DNA of 8,829 nucleotides from an uncultured Oscillospiraceae bacterium (GTDB taxonomy: Bacteria > Bacillota_A > Clostridia > Oscillospirales > Oscillospiraceae): positions 1 to 8,829 of the forward strand of contig CAAGIU010000045.1 in assembly GCA_900770015.1 (NCBI GenBank), read 5' to 3'. Below the pieces are notes generated by a model. It worked only from the letters and a program-made list of their open reading frames with translations. It ran no database searches and was not told where the DNA came from. This document shows positions 3,562 to 8,829 of this stretch, piece by piece. The translations under genes and the position numbers were made by a program. Numbering within the stretch: the stretch's first letter is position 1; every line of letters begins with the position of its first letter.

Positions 3562-5010
3562 TCAGAACTGGAAATAGAGGAAGGGATTGTAGCTGTCGCC
3601 GACGAGATTGGCCGTGGACAGCAGCAGCAGCGCCACGGGCACCAGGGCATAGAGCACCACATTCCAGACCCTCCGGGCATCTTCCCCCAGATGGCCCTCC
3701 ATGAAGACCTTGAAATTCCCCATGGCAGGTGTGCAGGCGAAGCAGCACACCGCCAGCAGCACCACATTGCTCCTGAGCTGGATGGCGTCGGTGAAGCTGG
3801 TCAGGGGATTGCCGCTGCAGCCGAAGAGGGTGCGGAATAACTGTCCGCATACCGTCAGGTCGGTGAACCGGAAGATCACCCAGCCCAGGGCCACCACAAT
3901 GAGCAGATAGAGGTTGGAAACCAGGGGCGCCTTTTCCAGAAAGCGCTTCAGGAACAGCCGCTCCAGCATCAGAAATACGAACATCCACAGTCCCCACACC
4001 ACAAAATTCCAGCTGGCCCCGTGCCACAGGCCGGTGAGCGCCCACACCACCAGGGTGTTCAGCATAGCCCGCAGGAAGCTGCACCGGCTGCCGCCCAGGG
4101 GGATGTAGACATAATCCCGGAAGAAGGTGCCCAGGGAGATGTGCCACCGCCGCCAGAATTCGGTGACGGTGCGGGAGATGTAGGGGTAGCGGAAATTCTC
4201 CGGGTAGTGCAGGCCCAGCATTTTGCCCATGCCGATGGCCATGTCGGAGTAGGCGGAGAAGTCCAGATAGATGTGCAGCGAGAAGGCGATGATGCCCACC
4301 CAGGCGCCCAGGACGGAGAGGTTCTGGAAATAGCTCAGGTTTTCCGCCAGCAGCTGGGGATTGGAAGCGGTGGAGGCGGGCAGGATCAGGGCGTCCGCCA
4401 GGGCGCCGCAGGGGTTTGCCAGCAGCACCTTCTTGGCAAGGCCCGCGCTGAACCGGGACACCCCGGCGGCCAGCTCCGGGGTACGATGGCCGAACAGCTC
4501 CCGGTCGATGGAGGCGTAGCGGACGATGGGTCCGGCGATGCACTGGTGGAACAGGGCGGCGTAGAGCAGGACGTTGAAGTAGCTGTCCTGGGCCGGGGCC
4601 TCCGCCCGGTACACATCCACCACATAGGTCAGCAGCTGGAAGGTGTAGAACGAGATGCCGATGGGCAGGGCGATGTTCCGGACGGCCTCCGGCACAGGCC
4701 CGAACAGGCCGCAGATCATGGAGGCGTACTTGAAGTAGGCGATCAGGGAGATGTCCACGATCACCGTCAGCGTCAGATAGAGGGTCTGGATGTTGGGATT
4801 CCGGGTCTGCTCAATTTTCAGGGCGAAGAACCAGCTGACCAGGGCCATGAACATCAGCAGCAGAACGTATTTCGGCTCTCCCCAGGCGTAGAAAATCAGC
4901 GAGGAGACCAGCAGCACCGCATTCTGCGACCGCCTGCCTTTGCACAAAAAGTAAGCCAGCAGCGACAGCGGGAAAAACGCGTACAGAAAAATCAGACTGG
5001 AAAAAACCAT
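3562..5010 (-). CDS. MBOAT family O-acyltransferase (AlgI-like)
   Basis: This 482-residue polytopic membrane protein is of the family's normal length and belongs to the AlgI/PatA/DltB branch of MBOAT enzymes, which pass an acyl group across the membrane for O-acylation of envelope or secreted polymers. Motifs in order: GISFYTFQ (118-125), YLDFSAYSDMAIG (248-260), NFRYPYISRTVTEFWRRWHIS (from 272, with the conserved His290), GTFFRDYVYIPLGGSR (294-309), LTGLWHGASWNFVVWG (325-340, with the expected catalytic His330) and the C-terminal YFQF. The start at 5010 is chosen because the protein begins MVFSSLIFLYAFFPLSL as the family does. Its Shine-Dalgarno is the less usual GGTGAT, 5 nt upstream. A -35/-10 pair at 5098-5070 suits a transcript with a ~50-nt leader. 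It is first in an operon with the DHHW partner and coaX. The acyl donor is probably an acyl-CoA, which would fit co-expression with a CoA synthesis gene; that link is inference. Confidence 0.94.
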   Translation of the reverse strand: MVFSSLIFLYAFFPLSLLAYFLCKGRRSQNAVLLVSSLIFYAWGEPKYVLLLMFMALVSWFFALKIEQTRNPNIQTLYLTLTVIVDISLIAYFKYASMICGLFGPVPEAVRNIALPIGISFYTFQLLTYVVDVYRAEAPAQDSYFNVLLYAALFHQCIAGPIVRYASIDRELFGHRTPELAAGVSRFSAGLAKKVLLANPCGALADALILPASTASNPQLLAENLSYFQNLSVLGAWVGIIAFSLHIYLDFSAYSDMAIGMGKMLGLHYPENFRYPYISRTVTEFWRRWHISLGTFFRDYVYIPLGGSRCSFLRAMLNTLVVWALTGLWHGASWNFVVWGLWMFVFLMLERLFLKRFLEKAPLVSNLYLLIVVALGWVIFRFTDLTVCGQLFRTLFGCSGNPLTSFTDAIQLRSNVVLLAVCCFACTPAMGNFKVFMEGHLGEDARRVWNVVLYALVPVALLLLSTANLVGDSYNPFLYFQF

Positions 5011-5458: not shown

Positions 5459-6676
5459 ATGGAAAAATTAACGGGAAAAACGGTTCTTCTGGGCATCACC
5501 GGGGGAATTGCGGCTTATAAAATGGCAAATGTGGCATCCGCTCTGCGCAAGGCCGGGGCGGAGGTACACGTCATCATGACCGAGAACGCCACGCAGTTCA
5601 TCACCCCCCTGACCTTCGAGACCCTGACCAACCACCGCTGCATTGTGGACACCTTTGACCGGAATTTCCAGTACGATGTGGCCCATGTGTCCCTGGCCAA
5701 GGCTGCGGATGTGATTCTGATCGCCCCGGCCACCGCCAACGTCATCGCAAAGCTGGCCCACGGCCTGGCCGACGATATGCTCACCACCACGGTGCTGGCC
5801 TCCCGCGCCCCCAAGCTGGTGGCCCCCGCCATGAACACCGCCATGCTGGAAAATCCGGTTACCCAGGATAACATAAAACTGCTGGAGCACTACGGCTTTA
5901 CCGTCATCCAGCCCGCCGTGGGGATGCTGGCCTGCAGGGATGTGGGCAGCGGCAAGCTCCCGGAGCCGGAGGCGCTGGTGGATGCCGTGTGCATGGAGAT
6001 TGCCCGGGAGAAGGACATGCAGGGTCTGCACGTCACCGTCACCGCTGGGCCCACCCGGGAAAAATTGGACCCGGTGCGGTATCTGACCAACCATTCCACC
6101 GGCAAAATGGGCTACGCCATCGCAAGGGAGGCAAGGCTCCGGGGCGCGGAGGTGACCCTGATCTCCGGCCAGGTGGCGCTGAACCCGGTGCCCGGGGTGA
6201 CCATGCAGTATGTGACCAGCGCCCAGGATATGCTGGAGGCGGTGCAGCAGGCCCTGCCGGGCACCGACATTCTCATCAAGGCCGCCGCCGTGGCCGACTA
6301 CCGCCCGGCAAATGTTGCCGATGAGAAGATGAAGAAGGGCGACGGCGAGCTGTCCATCCCCTTGGAGCGCACCGCCGACATCCTGGGCTGGGTCAGCGAA
6401 AACCGCCATCCGGGGCTGTTCGTCTGCGGCTTTTCCATGGAGACGGAAAATATGCTGGAAAACAGCCAAAAGAAACTGGAAAAAAAGCACCTGGACATGA
6501 TCGCCGCCAACAACCTGAAGACCCCCGGCGCGGGCTTCGGGGTGGAGACCAATGTGGTCACCATCCTCACGCCGGACGGCGTGAAGGAGCTGCCCCTGAT
6601 GGAAAAATCCCAGGTCGCCCAAGTGCTCCTGGACGAAATTCTGCGGCGACTCGCCGCAGCCAATGAGCAAAATTAA
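5459..6676 (+). CDS. coaBC: Bifunctional phosphopantothenoylcysteine decarboxylase / phosphopantothenate-cysteine ligase
   Basis: CoaBC ligates cysteine to 4'-phosphopantothenate (C-terminal CoaB, CTP-dependent in bacteria), then decarboxylates the product to 4'-phosphopantetheine (N-terminal CoaC, FMN-dependent). At 405 residues it has the normal fused length. In the CoaC half: GITGGIAAYK (12-21), HVSLAKAADVILIAPATAN (from His76, the expected catalytic His), PAMN (123-126) and GMLACRDVGSGKLPEPE (155-171, with Cys159 as the expected active-site Cys). In the CoaB half: VTAGPTREKLDPVRYLTNHS (194-213, with Asn211), GKMGYAIA (215-222), KAAAVADYRP (274-283), KMKKGD (290-295, with the expected Lys292) and IAANNL (348-353). 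The usual small residue after the active Cys (often Gly) is Arg160. ATG at 5459 follows AGGTG with 7-nt spacing. It is transcribed away from coaX, the enzyme that supplies its substrate, and has a long leader with a small ORF and repeat C. Confidence 0.96.
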   Translation: MEKLTGKTVLLGITGGIAAYKMANVASALRKAGAEVHVIMTENATQFITPLTFETLTNHRCIVDTFDRNFQYDVAHVSLAKAADVILIAPATANVIAKLAHGLADDMLTTTVLASRAPKLVAPAMNTAMLENPVTQDNIKLLEHYGFTVIQPAVGMLACRDVGSGKLPEPEALVDAVCMEIAREKDMQGLHVTVTAGPTREKLDPVRYLTNHSTGKMGYAIAREARLRGAEVTLISGQVALNPVPGVTMQYVTSAQDMLEAVQQALPGTDILIKAAAVADYRPANVADEKMKKGDGELSIPLERTADILGWVSENRHPGLFVCGFSMETENMLENSQKKLEKKHLDMIAANNLKTPGAGFGVETNVVTILTPDGVKELPLMEKSQVAQVLLDEILRRLAAANEQN

Positions 6677-6728
6677 GAATGTGCTTATCGGGCTTAGCAA
6701 ATTGCAATTTGGCGGGGCAAAACTTTCT

Positions 6729-6889
6729 TGCGCGCAGCGCATATCGAGTGCCATGCACATATCGAGTGCCATGCACATATCGATTGCGAAGCAAATATCG
6801 TTTTGATATATCGATATCTTTCCCATGGGAAAGTCGATATTGCCTTCGGCATCGATATTGATCGGTTGATCAAATGAGATACTTCGTAT
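6729..6889. repeat. Array of mini-hairpins separated by ATATCGA / TCGATAT motifs
   Basis: Between coaBC and rqcH lies a regular, entirely palindromic array. ATATCGA occurs at 6741, 6759 and 6777, with ATATCGT at 6795 (18-nt period). A palindromic centre ATATCGATAT follows (6808-6817). The reverse motif TCGATAT then occurs at 6834 and 6852, again 18 nt apart. Spacers between motifs are inverted repeats: GTGC-CAT-GCAC (6748-6758 and 6766-6776), TTGC-GAA-GCAA (6784-6794), CTTTCCCATGGGAAAG (6818-6833), TGCC-TTC-GGCA (6841-6851) and TGATC-GGTT-GATCA (6859-6872). TGCGC-GCA-GCGCA (6729-6741) and ATAC-TTC-GTAT (6879-6889) flank it, and ATATC-GTTTT-GATAT spans 6795-6809. Forward motifs can also pair with reverse motifs over long range. 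No named family is recognised. It may be a structured 3' or intercistronic RNA, a protein-binding palindrome cluster or a non-autonomous mobile element. No frame through it has a plausible start. Confidence 0.85.
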
Positions 6890-6942
6890 GTGCCCCGTCA
6901 AATTACAATATTACAGGGGAGTGCGCCCACGATTTCCAACGG

Positions 6943-6948
6943 AAAGGA
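6943..6948 (+). promoter_or_regulatory. Ribosome binding site that fixes the rqcH start
   Basis: AAAGGA lies 10 nt before ATG 6959 and is preceded by GG. The earlier in-frame GTG at 6890 has no purine-rich site and abuts the last hairpin of the array, so the ATG at 6959 is preferred. Confidence 0.7.
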
Positions 6949-6958
6949 CCAATATTTC

Positions 6959-8701
6959 ATGGCATTTGATGCTTTTTTTCTCACCTCGGTATTGGACGAG
7001 GTGCGCGCCCGGTGTCTGGGCGCCCGGGTGGAGAAGATCCACCAGCCCAGCCGGGATACGCTGATTCTGCTGCTGCGCTGCCAGGAGGGGCGGGAAAAGC
7101 TGCTCTTTGTGGCAAATCCCACGGCCCCCCGGCTGCACCTGACCACCGCCTCCCCGGAAAATCCCCCGGAGCCGCCCATGTTCTGTATGCTCCTGCGCAA
7201 GCACCTGTCCGGCGCCCGGCTGGTTTCCGTCACCCAGCCCCCCATGGAGCGGGCGGCCGCCTTCACCTTCGACTGCACCGACGAAATGGGCTTCCCGGTA
7301 CAGAAGCGGCTGGTGGCGGAGCTGATGGGCCGCACCTGCAACCTCTACCTGCTGGGCCCCGACGGGCGGATTCTGGACTGCCTGCGGCGCATCGGCCTGG
7401 ACGAGAGCGCCAGACGGGCGGCGCTGCCGGGACTGATGTACGTGGAGCCGGAGAAGGTTTCCAAGCAGAACCCCATGGAGCTGACCACAGAAGATTATGT
7501 CAACTTACTGAACCAACCCGGTGCCGACCTGCTTTCTGACCGGCTGATGGATGCCCTGGGCGGCCTGTCCCCTCTTGTCTGCCGGGAGGCGGCGCTGTAC
7601 TGCGCCGGGGACACCGACGCCCGGGTCAGCGCCCTGGATGTGGCTGCCGCGGCGGAAAAGCTCTGCCTGTTTTTTACCGAGCATCTGCACCACCCCCGCC
7701 CCTGCTTCTATGCCCAGGCCGACGGCACCCCCAAGCAGTTTGCCTTCTGCCCCATAAGGCAGTACGGCGATTATCAGGAAGCCGAGTCCTTCGGAAAACT
7801 TCTGGACAGCTACTACACCCTCCGGGACCGGAAGGACGCCATGCGGCAGAAGAGCCAGGGCATCCGCAAAACCGTCAGTAACCTCTGCCAGCGGCTGCGG
7901 CGGAAGCTGGCCGTCCAGGAAAAGGAGCTGGAAGCCACCTTCGACCGGGAGCGCCTGCGCCAGCTGGGCGACATCGTCACGGCAAACATCGGCAGGATCG
8001 TCAAGGGTCAGACCGTGCTGGAATGCGAGGACTTCTACGACGAGGAGATGAAGACCATCTCCATCCCCCTCTCCCCCATTCTCTCGCCCCAGCAGAACGC
8101 CGCCAAATTCTACAAGGACTACACAAGAATGAAAAACGCCCAGCGGGAGCTGACCCATCAGCTGGAGCTGGGCAGAGAAGAGCTGTCCTATCTGGAATCG
8201 GTGCTGGAGGAGCTGAACCGGGCCTCCACGGAAGCGGAGCTGGAGGAAATCCGGCAGGAGCTGCAGTCCGGCGGCTATGTGCGCATGGACACCGGCAGGA
8301 AGAAGATGAAGCAGAGCAGGCTCGCCCCCATGCGCTTTGAGAGCACCGACGGCTTTGCCATCTACGTGGGAAGAAACAACCGGCAGAACGACGAGCTGAC
8401 CTTCCGCCTTGCCCGGAAGGACGACATCTGGTGCCACGCCAGCAAGGTTCACGGCAGCCACGTCATCATCTCCTGCGGCGGCAGAACCCCTCCGGACAAC
8501 ACCGTCACCCAGGCGGCCCAGCTGGCGGCCTACTACGCCGAAACCGGCGGCGGCCAGAACATCCCCGTGGATGTCACCAGCGTCAAGCAGGTGAAAAAAA
8601 TCCCCAGCGGCAAGCCGGGGATGGTGATCTACCACACCTATAAAACCGTCATCGCCAACCCCTACCCCGACATCGTCATCGACGCCCTCAACGCGGAATG
8701 A
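6959..8701 (+). CDS. rqcH: RqcH, Rqc2/NEMF-type ribosome quality control factor (NFACT family)
   Basis: RqcH binds stalled, split 50S subunits carrying peptidyl-tRNA and directs addition of C-terminal alanine tails that mark the nascent chain for degradation. Older annotation calls it fibronectin-binding protein A. The 580-residue product starts MAFDAFFLTSVLDEV, as the family does, and is full length. Visible parts: the NFACT-N domain (about 1-270, with MLLRKHLSGARL 77-88 and KRLVAELMGRTCNLYL 117-132), a long charged coiled-coil region (about 285-440, broken by NAAKFYKDYTRMKNAQ 380-395) and the C-terminal NFACT-R domain (about 455-570, with GFAIYVGRNNRQNDELTFRL from 465 and GSHVII 499-504). 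At positions 97-98, where B. subtilis RqcH has the Asp-Arg pair needed for alanine tailing, this protein has Glu-Arg. The GSHV motif is preceded by His rather than the usual Pro. It stands alone, 282 nt after coaBC, behind the hairpin array; no clear promoter is seen. Confidence 0.94.
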   Translation: MAFDAFFLTSVLDEVRARCLGARVEKIHQPSRDTLILLLRCQEGREKLLFVANPTAPRLHLTTASPENPPEPPMFCMLLRKHLSGARLVSVTQPPMERAAAFTFDCTDEMGFPVQKRLVAELMGRTCNLYLLGPDGRILDCLRRIGLDESARRAALPGLMYVEPEKVSKQNPMELTTEDYVNLLNQPGADLLSDRLMDALGGLSPLVCREAALYCAGDTDARVSALDVAAAAEKLCLFFTEHLHHPRPCFYAQADGTPKQFAFCPIRQYGDYQEAESFGKLLDSYYTLRDRKDAMRQKSQGIRKTVSNLCQRLRRKLAVQEKELEATFDRERLRQLGDIVTANIGRIVKGQTVLECEDFYDEEMKTISIPLSPILSPQQNAAKFYKDYTRMKNAQRELTHQLELGREELSYLESVLEELNRASTEAELEEIRQELQSGGYVRMDTGRKKMKQSRLAPMRFESTDGFAIYVGRNNRQNDELTFRLARKDDIWCHASKVHGSHVIISCGGRTPPDNTVTQAAQLAAYYAETGGGQNIPVDVTSVKQVKKIPSGKPGMVIYHTYKTVIANPYPDIVIDALNAE

Positions 8702-8724: not shown

Positions 8725-8829
8725 GGCGCTTACGGCGCCCTTGGCTCTCCCTTTGGGAGAGCTGTCAGCCGAACAGGCTGACTGAGAGGGTACTACGTTT
8801 GAGGTTTGGAATCGGGTAATTGTGACGTG
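8725..8829 (-). repeat. MITE-like palindromic element, copy D, inverted and cut by the window end
   Basis: Read on the minus strand this is the right end of the A/C family. The arm 8739-8791 is identical over 53 nt to the right arm of copy C. The core 8792-8829 aligns without gaps to the core of copy A, with about 30 of 38 bases matching by my reading. Outside the arm lies GGCGC-TTACG-GCGCC (8725-8739), equivalent to the GGCGC-TGCC-GCGCC hairpin outside copy A. It starts 23 nt after the rqcH stop. The hairpins are not followed by a T-run, so a terminator role is unproven. The second arm lies beyond the window. Confidence 0.85.

Follow-up and report, generated by a model that had tools for sequence, protein, structure and literature searches.

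A mirrored ATATCGA hairpin array between coaBC and rqcH of an Oscillospiraceae bacterium, probably a solo copy of a dispersed class of heptamer-hairpin elements linked to PF05635 genes

The array in the coaBC-rqcH gap

The window, that is, the whole 8,829-nt stretch analysed here, carries a 282-nt gap (6677-6958) between coaBC upstream (5459-6676, plus strand; Pfam DFP and Flavoprotein) and rqcH downstream (6959-8701, plus strand; Pfam NFACT_N and NFACT-R_1), both lying outside the element described below. Direct reading shows that this gap is occupied by an array of short hairpins separated by a fixed heptamer. The left half (6741-6801, plus strand) consists of ATATCGA linkers at 6741, 6759 and 6777 and a one-base variant, ATATCGT, at 6795, alternating with hairpins at 6748-6758, 6766-6776 and 6784-6794. 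A further ATATCGA at 6808 opens the palindromic turning point ATATCGATAT (6808-6817, without strand), which also contains TCGATAT at 6811 and at which the direction of the heptamer reverses. Beyond it, the hairpin CTTTCCCATGGGAAAG (6818-6833, plus strand), with a 6-bp stem, leads into the right half (6834-6872, plus strand), with TCGATAT linkers at 6834 and 6852 and hairpins at 6841-6851 and 6859-6872, followed by the outermost hairpin ATACTTCGTAT (6879-6889, plus strand). A 4-bp stem and a 3-nt loop are kept in GTGCCATGCAC (present twice), TTGCGAAGCAA, TGCCTTCGGCA and ATACTTCGTAT, as well as in GCGCGCAGCGC (6730-6740, plus strand), which resembles the centre hairpin of related arrays, the stretch 6726-6783 aligning with the centre and half arrays in relatives.

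The flip of the motif at 6808-6817 and the 18-nt period on both sides of the centre can be read directly, as a preliminary description of this DNA had stated. That description also gave the spacers between the fixed motifs as 11 nt long with a 4-bp stem and a 3-nt loop; the stem and loop stand, whereas the length rule is not general, since two right-hand spacers, CTTTCCCATGGGAAAG (6818-6833) and TGATCGGTTGATCA (6859-6872), exceed 11 nt. It missed an enclosing inverted repeat of 19 nt, with its left arm at 6701-6719 and its right arm at 6891-6909 (both listed on the plus strand), so that the element is larger than supposed. These arms are 89% complementary (17 of 19 positions), a level reached by none of 3000 composition shuffles. 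Dinucleotide shuffles of the 282-nt gap held a mean of 0.18 motif copies and at most 3 in 500 trials, and the rest of the window contains a single occurrence of the two 7-mers taken together (1479). A strict detector applied to 6690-6920 found 3+2 units, and the window array has the heptamer on one side, its reverse complement on the other and hairpin spacers on both.

Folding 6699-6912 as RNA gave -80.7 kcal/mol, compared with -54.7 +/- 4.6 for 200 dinucleotide shuffles (z -5.6), none of which folded as low, and DNA energies gave a z of -6.6. The inverted-repeat hairpin array on ATATCGA/TCGATAT is confirmed as real. In the DNA fold, pairing between left and right linkers forms a spine with the hairpins projecting from it, an arrangement for which we coin the name "fishbone". 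A scan revealed no promoter-like site in 6600-7000 and no intrinsic terminator in the element; the sole terminator-like site (6609-6623, minus strand) lies within coaBC, in agreement with the earlier view that this is not a standard terminator. No Rfam family matches the window at the gathering score, and relaxing the limit to E 1 adds only a microRNA model that scores far under its own cut-off.

Two known kinds of repeat structure were considered for the window copy and rejected. A CRISPR array, already set aside in the preliminary description, is excluded by the palindromic spacers and the flipping repeat, and the genes named in the window, from the subset of frames scanned, are non-cas genes; a 23S rRNA intervening sequence is excluded for this copy by its position between coaBC and rqcH rather than within 23S rRNA.

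Among the species available for comparison, the best match of the window's rqcH is 86% identical, and its nearest records are from uncultured Clostridia, Oscillospiraceae and Faecousia. Among 80 rqcH loci of relatives, none has an array within 600 nt upstream of the gene (L047 and L050 have one stray motif each) and none has coaBC beside it, the window's gene order being unique among the 80, whereas mrnC, the ribonuclease III gene (Pfam Ribonuclease_3), lies at most 600 nt upstream of rqcH on the same strand in 61. In the window, mrnC (224-634) and hepT (616-1125) lie at the opposite end, on the minus strand. This arrangement, with mrnC far away and coaBC at rqcH, places the array at a rearranged junction that may be an inversion breakpoint, as if a block from coaBC to mrnC had been inverted.

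Two further repeats were observed in these neighbourhoods. The window carries inverted copies of another palindromic repeat near its ends (97-189 and 8735-8827, 92% identical over 93 bp), with a partial further copy at about 33-92. The mrnC-rqcH gap of one relative (L002) has an inverted tandem repeat of its own, of the TTGAAAA type, about 90 nt upstream of rqcH (3910-4000), which represents another class of the kind seen before PF05635 genes.

A dispersed family of arrays with kept pairing

Related genomes were searched with the pattern ATATCGAN{9,14}ATATCGA, the same pattern read backwards serving as control. Among 13 genomes, it matched 12 times in G002, 7 times in G013 and once in each of two others, while the backwards control gave 0 in all. 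Across 250 genomes of the family, the pattern is present in 53, compared with 12 for the control, with at most 3 control matches in each. Between 7 and 22 matches with palindromic spacers occur in six genomes (G002, G014, G075, G105, G162 and G183); multi-copy arrays are found in these six and in G013, and G157 has a single array. Single matches outside the array genomes were rejected as chance, judged by eye from their non-palindromic spacers, and G084 has a tandem repeat of another kind. The same architecture, in which ATATCGA and TCGATAT separate hairpins of free sequence, is multi-copy in a minority of related genomes, and the preliminary description's tentative remark on similar ATATCGA-rich gaps in gut Clostridia proved well founded.

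Forty array stretches were taken from nine genomes, 38 of which hold clusters of at least three linkers, 42 clusters in total. Most clusters follow the order TCGATAT-hairpins, centre, ATATCGA-hairpins; the halves stand in the opposite order in the window, in L285 and in five of the seven clusters of G162. Compared as DNA with 400 family genomes, the window array finds similar sequence in 9, chiefly along the centre and one half. A similarity search found no DNA resembling the window gap in plasmids or phages. In viral contigs, at least 120 stretches match a 14-base pattern, nearly all of the 80 stretches listed having one match. By eye, many array centres contain a word (for example GGAGCT or GGGAGCA) that matches an arm of the first hairpin, the two changing together (L314, L316, L317 and others), which hints at an alternative pairing. 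Arrays in L283 (G002) and L311 (G162) lie directly before dtd-like genes, named by eye from the gene start.

Pairing is kept while the spacer sequence changes, as the preliminary description had proposed from the window. Among 150 distinct spacers between ATATCG linkers, which have 38 different 5' arms, 123 pair at all four outer positions, with a mean of 3.77 of 4. When 3' arms were swapped among spacers, the mean was 1.55 and never exceeded 1.79 in 2000 trials, with at most 17 fully paired spacers, a test that shows pairing and not the number of independent compensatory events, because its statistics ignore spacer relatedness.

Orthologous sites were compared in one genus between two genomes, G162 and its sister species G086, and the array is absent from G086 at both sites examined. 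At L309, 252 bp with an array in G162 correspond to 31 bp between matching flanks in the G086 orthologue; at L311, the G162 insert of 373 bp comprises an array and another repeat, and G086 has only 16 bp between both genes, the gene ends being placed by eye. Judged from these alignments, array copies appear to come and go at orthologous sites.

Linkage to PF05635 genes and the heptamer tree

In 5 of the 40 ATATCGA array stretches, the array is immediately followed by a small gene encoding a PF05635 four-helix-bundle protein (23S rRNA IVP, S23p; TIGR02436), whose nearest solved structure is 2rld. The nine array genomes have 24 PF05635 genes, spread over eight of them; upstream of the other 19, several have arrays of other heptamers and others simpler repeats, often after a tRNA gene. 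PF05635 occurs in 60 of 250 family genomes (55 over cut-off), and 57 of 299 Bacillota genomes match. It is present in all seven ATATCGA-array genomes, compared with 53 of 243 others (p 3e-5), the seven excluding G078, which has one three-linker cluster and no PF05635 and whose inclusion makes the figure 7 of 8.

Upstream regions were analysed at 89 PF05635 loci, in 88 of which the gene was found by profile; L324, where the profile found no IVP, was left out, L391 and L407, with short upstream sequence, were omitted from part of the counts, and L409, at a contig end, had its upstream stretch miscut and was counted as a non-match. The strict detector was positive upstream of 23 of 86 PF05635 genes, compared with 2 of 252 other genes and 0 of 1720 shuffles, and both control positives themselves sit in PF05635 loci; in 666 kb around rqcH genes, it found no array. 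A crude 7-mer test exceeded all 60 shuffles in 36 of 87 PF05635 upstream regions.

By reading, the linkers before PF05635 genes are seven bases long. Where hairpin arrays are lacking, the upstream regions frequently contain tandem repeats with a seven-base period. Period 7 outranks every other period in 47 of 87 upstream regions, compared with 23 of 252 controls, and reaches 22 of 28 matches, counted as strong, in 28 of the 87, compared with 10 of 252. The 28 tandem-repeat regions and the 23 arrays do not overlap, so that by these tests 51 of 87 carry an array or a strong repeat and the other 36 lack both. In a Bacillota draw of 30 PF05635 genes, period 7 was best in 24 and strong in 10, and in 10 plasmid loci, picked from 25 records for spread (Cyanobacteriota, Bacteroidota, Spirochaetota, Chloroflexota and Bacillota), it was best in 10 and strong in 8. 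In 19 of 83 family loci and in 12 of 30 from Bacillota, words of the 5' side return as reverse complements on the 3' side to a degree that none of 100 shuffles equals.

PF05635 genes also keep company with stable RNAs. In 42 of 85 PF05635 loci, compared with 1 of 252 controls, a same-strand tRNA gene stands no more than 700 nt upstream; the array of L341 follows RNase P RNA; and in L376 and L382 a tmRNA gene of the opposite strand lies 92 nt from the start of the PF05635 gene. In Bacillota, PF05635 genes lie within 23S rRNA (four) and RNase P RNA (one) (L477, L483, L488, L489, L486).

Other neighbours were noted in passing. In L328, L333, L344, L369 and L395, PF05635 arrays follow, by eye, the 3' end of one same upstream gene, which we take to be an rlmD-like methyltransferase (DMFPHT-like motif). 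On plasmids, PF05635 genes separate cas2 from cas1, adjoin helicase or methylase genes, are flanked by restriction subunits, or separate drmD from pglX (L494, L495, L496, L497, L499), so that PF05635 stands inside defence gene clusters in 5 of the 10 plasmid loci.

The heptamer class follows the PF05635 tree, and the fit is perfect. On a tree of 87 PF05635 domains (L339, too short, being omitted), 34 array-type proteins fall into seven heptamer classes with six changes, the minimum possible, whereas 300 label shuffles gave a mean of 22.7 changes and never fewer than 18; the classes had been assigned by eye ahead of tree building, with one-base variants merged and 6 of the 87 rows without a label, and the tree itself comes from a quick method on 107 columns, with half of its inner branches weak. 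Automatic labels gave the same picture (21 proteins, six classes, five changes, again the minimum; shuffles at least 9). The ATATCGA class is represented by five proteins, each from a different genome, which group in a single clade (SH-aLRT 100). Such congruence is equally expected from co-inheritance of array and gene as from specific recognition.

Known elements, rival readings and meaning

The closest known relative of the window array is Gut-1 (RF01706), which the part of Weinberg et al. 2010 available to us (PMC2864571) places among non-coding RNAs and reports from human gut sequences alone. The likeness lies in hairpins split by a fixed heptamer (GUGAAAU), in the gut Clostridia that carry it and in the many copies per genome (at least 18 in some); the differences are the linker, ATATCGA rather than GTGAAAT, and the Gut-1 model, which has no match in the window at the gathering score or at E up to 1. 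In our loci, Gut-1 is the left half of GTGAAAT arrays (77.8, 76.2 and 68.4 bits in L330, L385 and L388), and the model scores 61.8 bits on L341, of a related ATGATAT class; the Rfam model covers one half and its own linker lineage only. The strict detector found both halves in 13 of 30 Gut-1 loci. Gut-1 occurs in 45 of 250 genomes (30 over cut-off), and among 14 control genomes E. coli has a match below cut-off. PF05635 is present in 30 of the 45 Gut-1 genomes, compared with 30 of 205 others (p 9e-12). The window array is a member of a many-linker class that includes Gut-1 and is tied to PF05635 genes, and the window copy is a new linker lineage of this Gut-1-like kind.

Two further systems share some of its features. 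In the part of PMC4990558 available to us, the Coxiella 23S rRNA intervening sequence has tandem heptamers before an S23p gene, a 28-bp terminal stem and RNase III excision; an S23p homologue forms a pentameric ring; and PF05635 proteins are said to be without known function. The PF05635 gene, the terminal inverted repeat and the heptamers before the gene are the points of likeness, whereas the window copy lies between protein genes without a PF05635 gene, and classical 23S rRNA intervening sequences have no known hairpin array. Intergenic tandem heptamers, TAACTGA in Beggiatoaceae (PMC4679880) and GGGNATC in Xanthomonas and Nostoc (PMC4692102), are ascribed to polymerase slippage in the portions of these articles consulted, and a term search of their text returned no mention of S23 or four-helix proteins. 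These repeats share the seven-base unit, and tandem heptamers precede many PF05635 genes; unlike the window array, they have no hairpins between units. The cyanobacterial STRR, likewise intergenic tandem heptamer repeats, differ from it in the same way. In the available part of PMC10910872, IVP appears in the figure legend of a CRISPR adaptation module, and the non-CRISPR repeat systems described are others. Within the literature available to us, partly as excerpts, we found no report tying PF05635 genes to hairpin arrays and no general heptamer rule.

Taken together, the window array is probably a solo, non-autonomous copy of a dispersed, IVP-linked class of heptamer-hairpin elements, the full form of which, on the same reading, would consist of a hairpin array with a PF05635 four-helix-bundle gene (23S rRNA IVP, S23p) downstream of it. 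No PF05635-like frame exists in the window, whose array stands as a solo copy. The heptamer keeps one orientation along one half and is reverse-complemented along the other, and the halves can pair into a spine that bears the hairpins. Mechanistically, an IVP ring might bind the hairpin-spaced heptamers in single-stranded DNA or RNA, and the protein, by recognising its own heptamer in structured nucleic acid, could help copies spread or persist, so that solo arrays would depend on an IVP copy elsewhere. An enzyme would spread the element, with solo arrays such as that of the window as passengers. Several observations count against this explanation: no PF05635 gene adjoins 35 of the 40 ATATCGA array stretches, 15 of the 45 Gut-1 genomes have no PF05635, G078 combines one small cluster with the lack of a PF05635 gene, and G002, G014 and G105 have both arrays and PF05635 genes, none of the latter that were fetched being of the ATATCGA class.

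The strongest rival, which we regard as unlikely, is a structured non-coding RNA under selection, in which the array would be transcribed and work as RNA, with its spread incidental and IVP a partner or neighbour. The kept pairing and the exceptional RNA fold are what such an RNA would present, Gut-1 is filed among non-coding RNAs in the part of PMC2864571 seen, and many PF05635 arrays come after stable RNA genes; the DNA fold, however, is at least as exceptional, the region around the window array lacks a promoter-like site, and the copies, which are found between unrelated genes, are absent from orthologous sites.

It is improbable that the array is mutational in origin, its arms rewritten by template switching that makes palindromes without selection or a protein partner. 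Near-perfect palindromes with as many different 5' arms as are found here are what arm copying predicts, yet this process leaves the fixed heptamers, the mirrored halves and the linkage to one gene family unexplained; it may act alongside the element class favoured above. Both alternatives of the preliminary description, selection on structure and a mechanism that copies palindromes, are compatible with these observations.

Least likely, and very doubtful, is a REP/BIME-like element mobilised by a Y1 (RAYT/HUH) transposase. In REPs, which are associated with Y1 transposases, the hairpin sequence is conserved, whereas the hairpins here are variable and the linker fixed, the opposite arrangement; the shared features are dispersed intergenic hairpins and palindromes in inverted pairs. 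Y1 genes occur more often in array genomes (6 of 7, compared with 98 of 243 others; p 0.02) and in Gut-1 genomes (29 of 45, compared with 75 of 205; p 6e-4), which is a weak co-occurrence, but the strict detector found an array in none of 20 Y1 loci of related genomes, mostly weak-scoring genes picked from array or Gut-1 genomes, in agreement with the preliminary description, which recognised no named REP/BIME in the array.

Beyond the window copy, a wider unification may be entertained, although we judge it short of probable: 23S rRNA intervening sequences, Gut-1 RNAs, many tandem heptamers and the window array could all be one kind of selfish element, made of a heptamer-specific four-helix-bundle protein and its array. 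Such elements would insert within or next to stable RNAs as well as between genes, and their solo arrays would be propagated in trans. The match between tree and heptamer gives PF05635, Gut-1 and the heptamer repeats a single hypothesis, in which IVP would be the heptamer-recognition protein of a selfish element, and the element class would explain a set of odd palindromic gaps seen in gut Clostridia.
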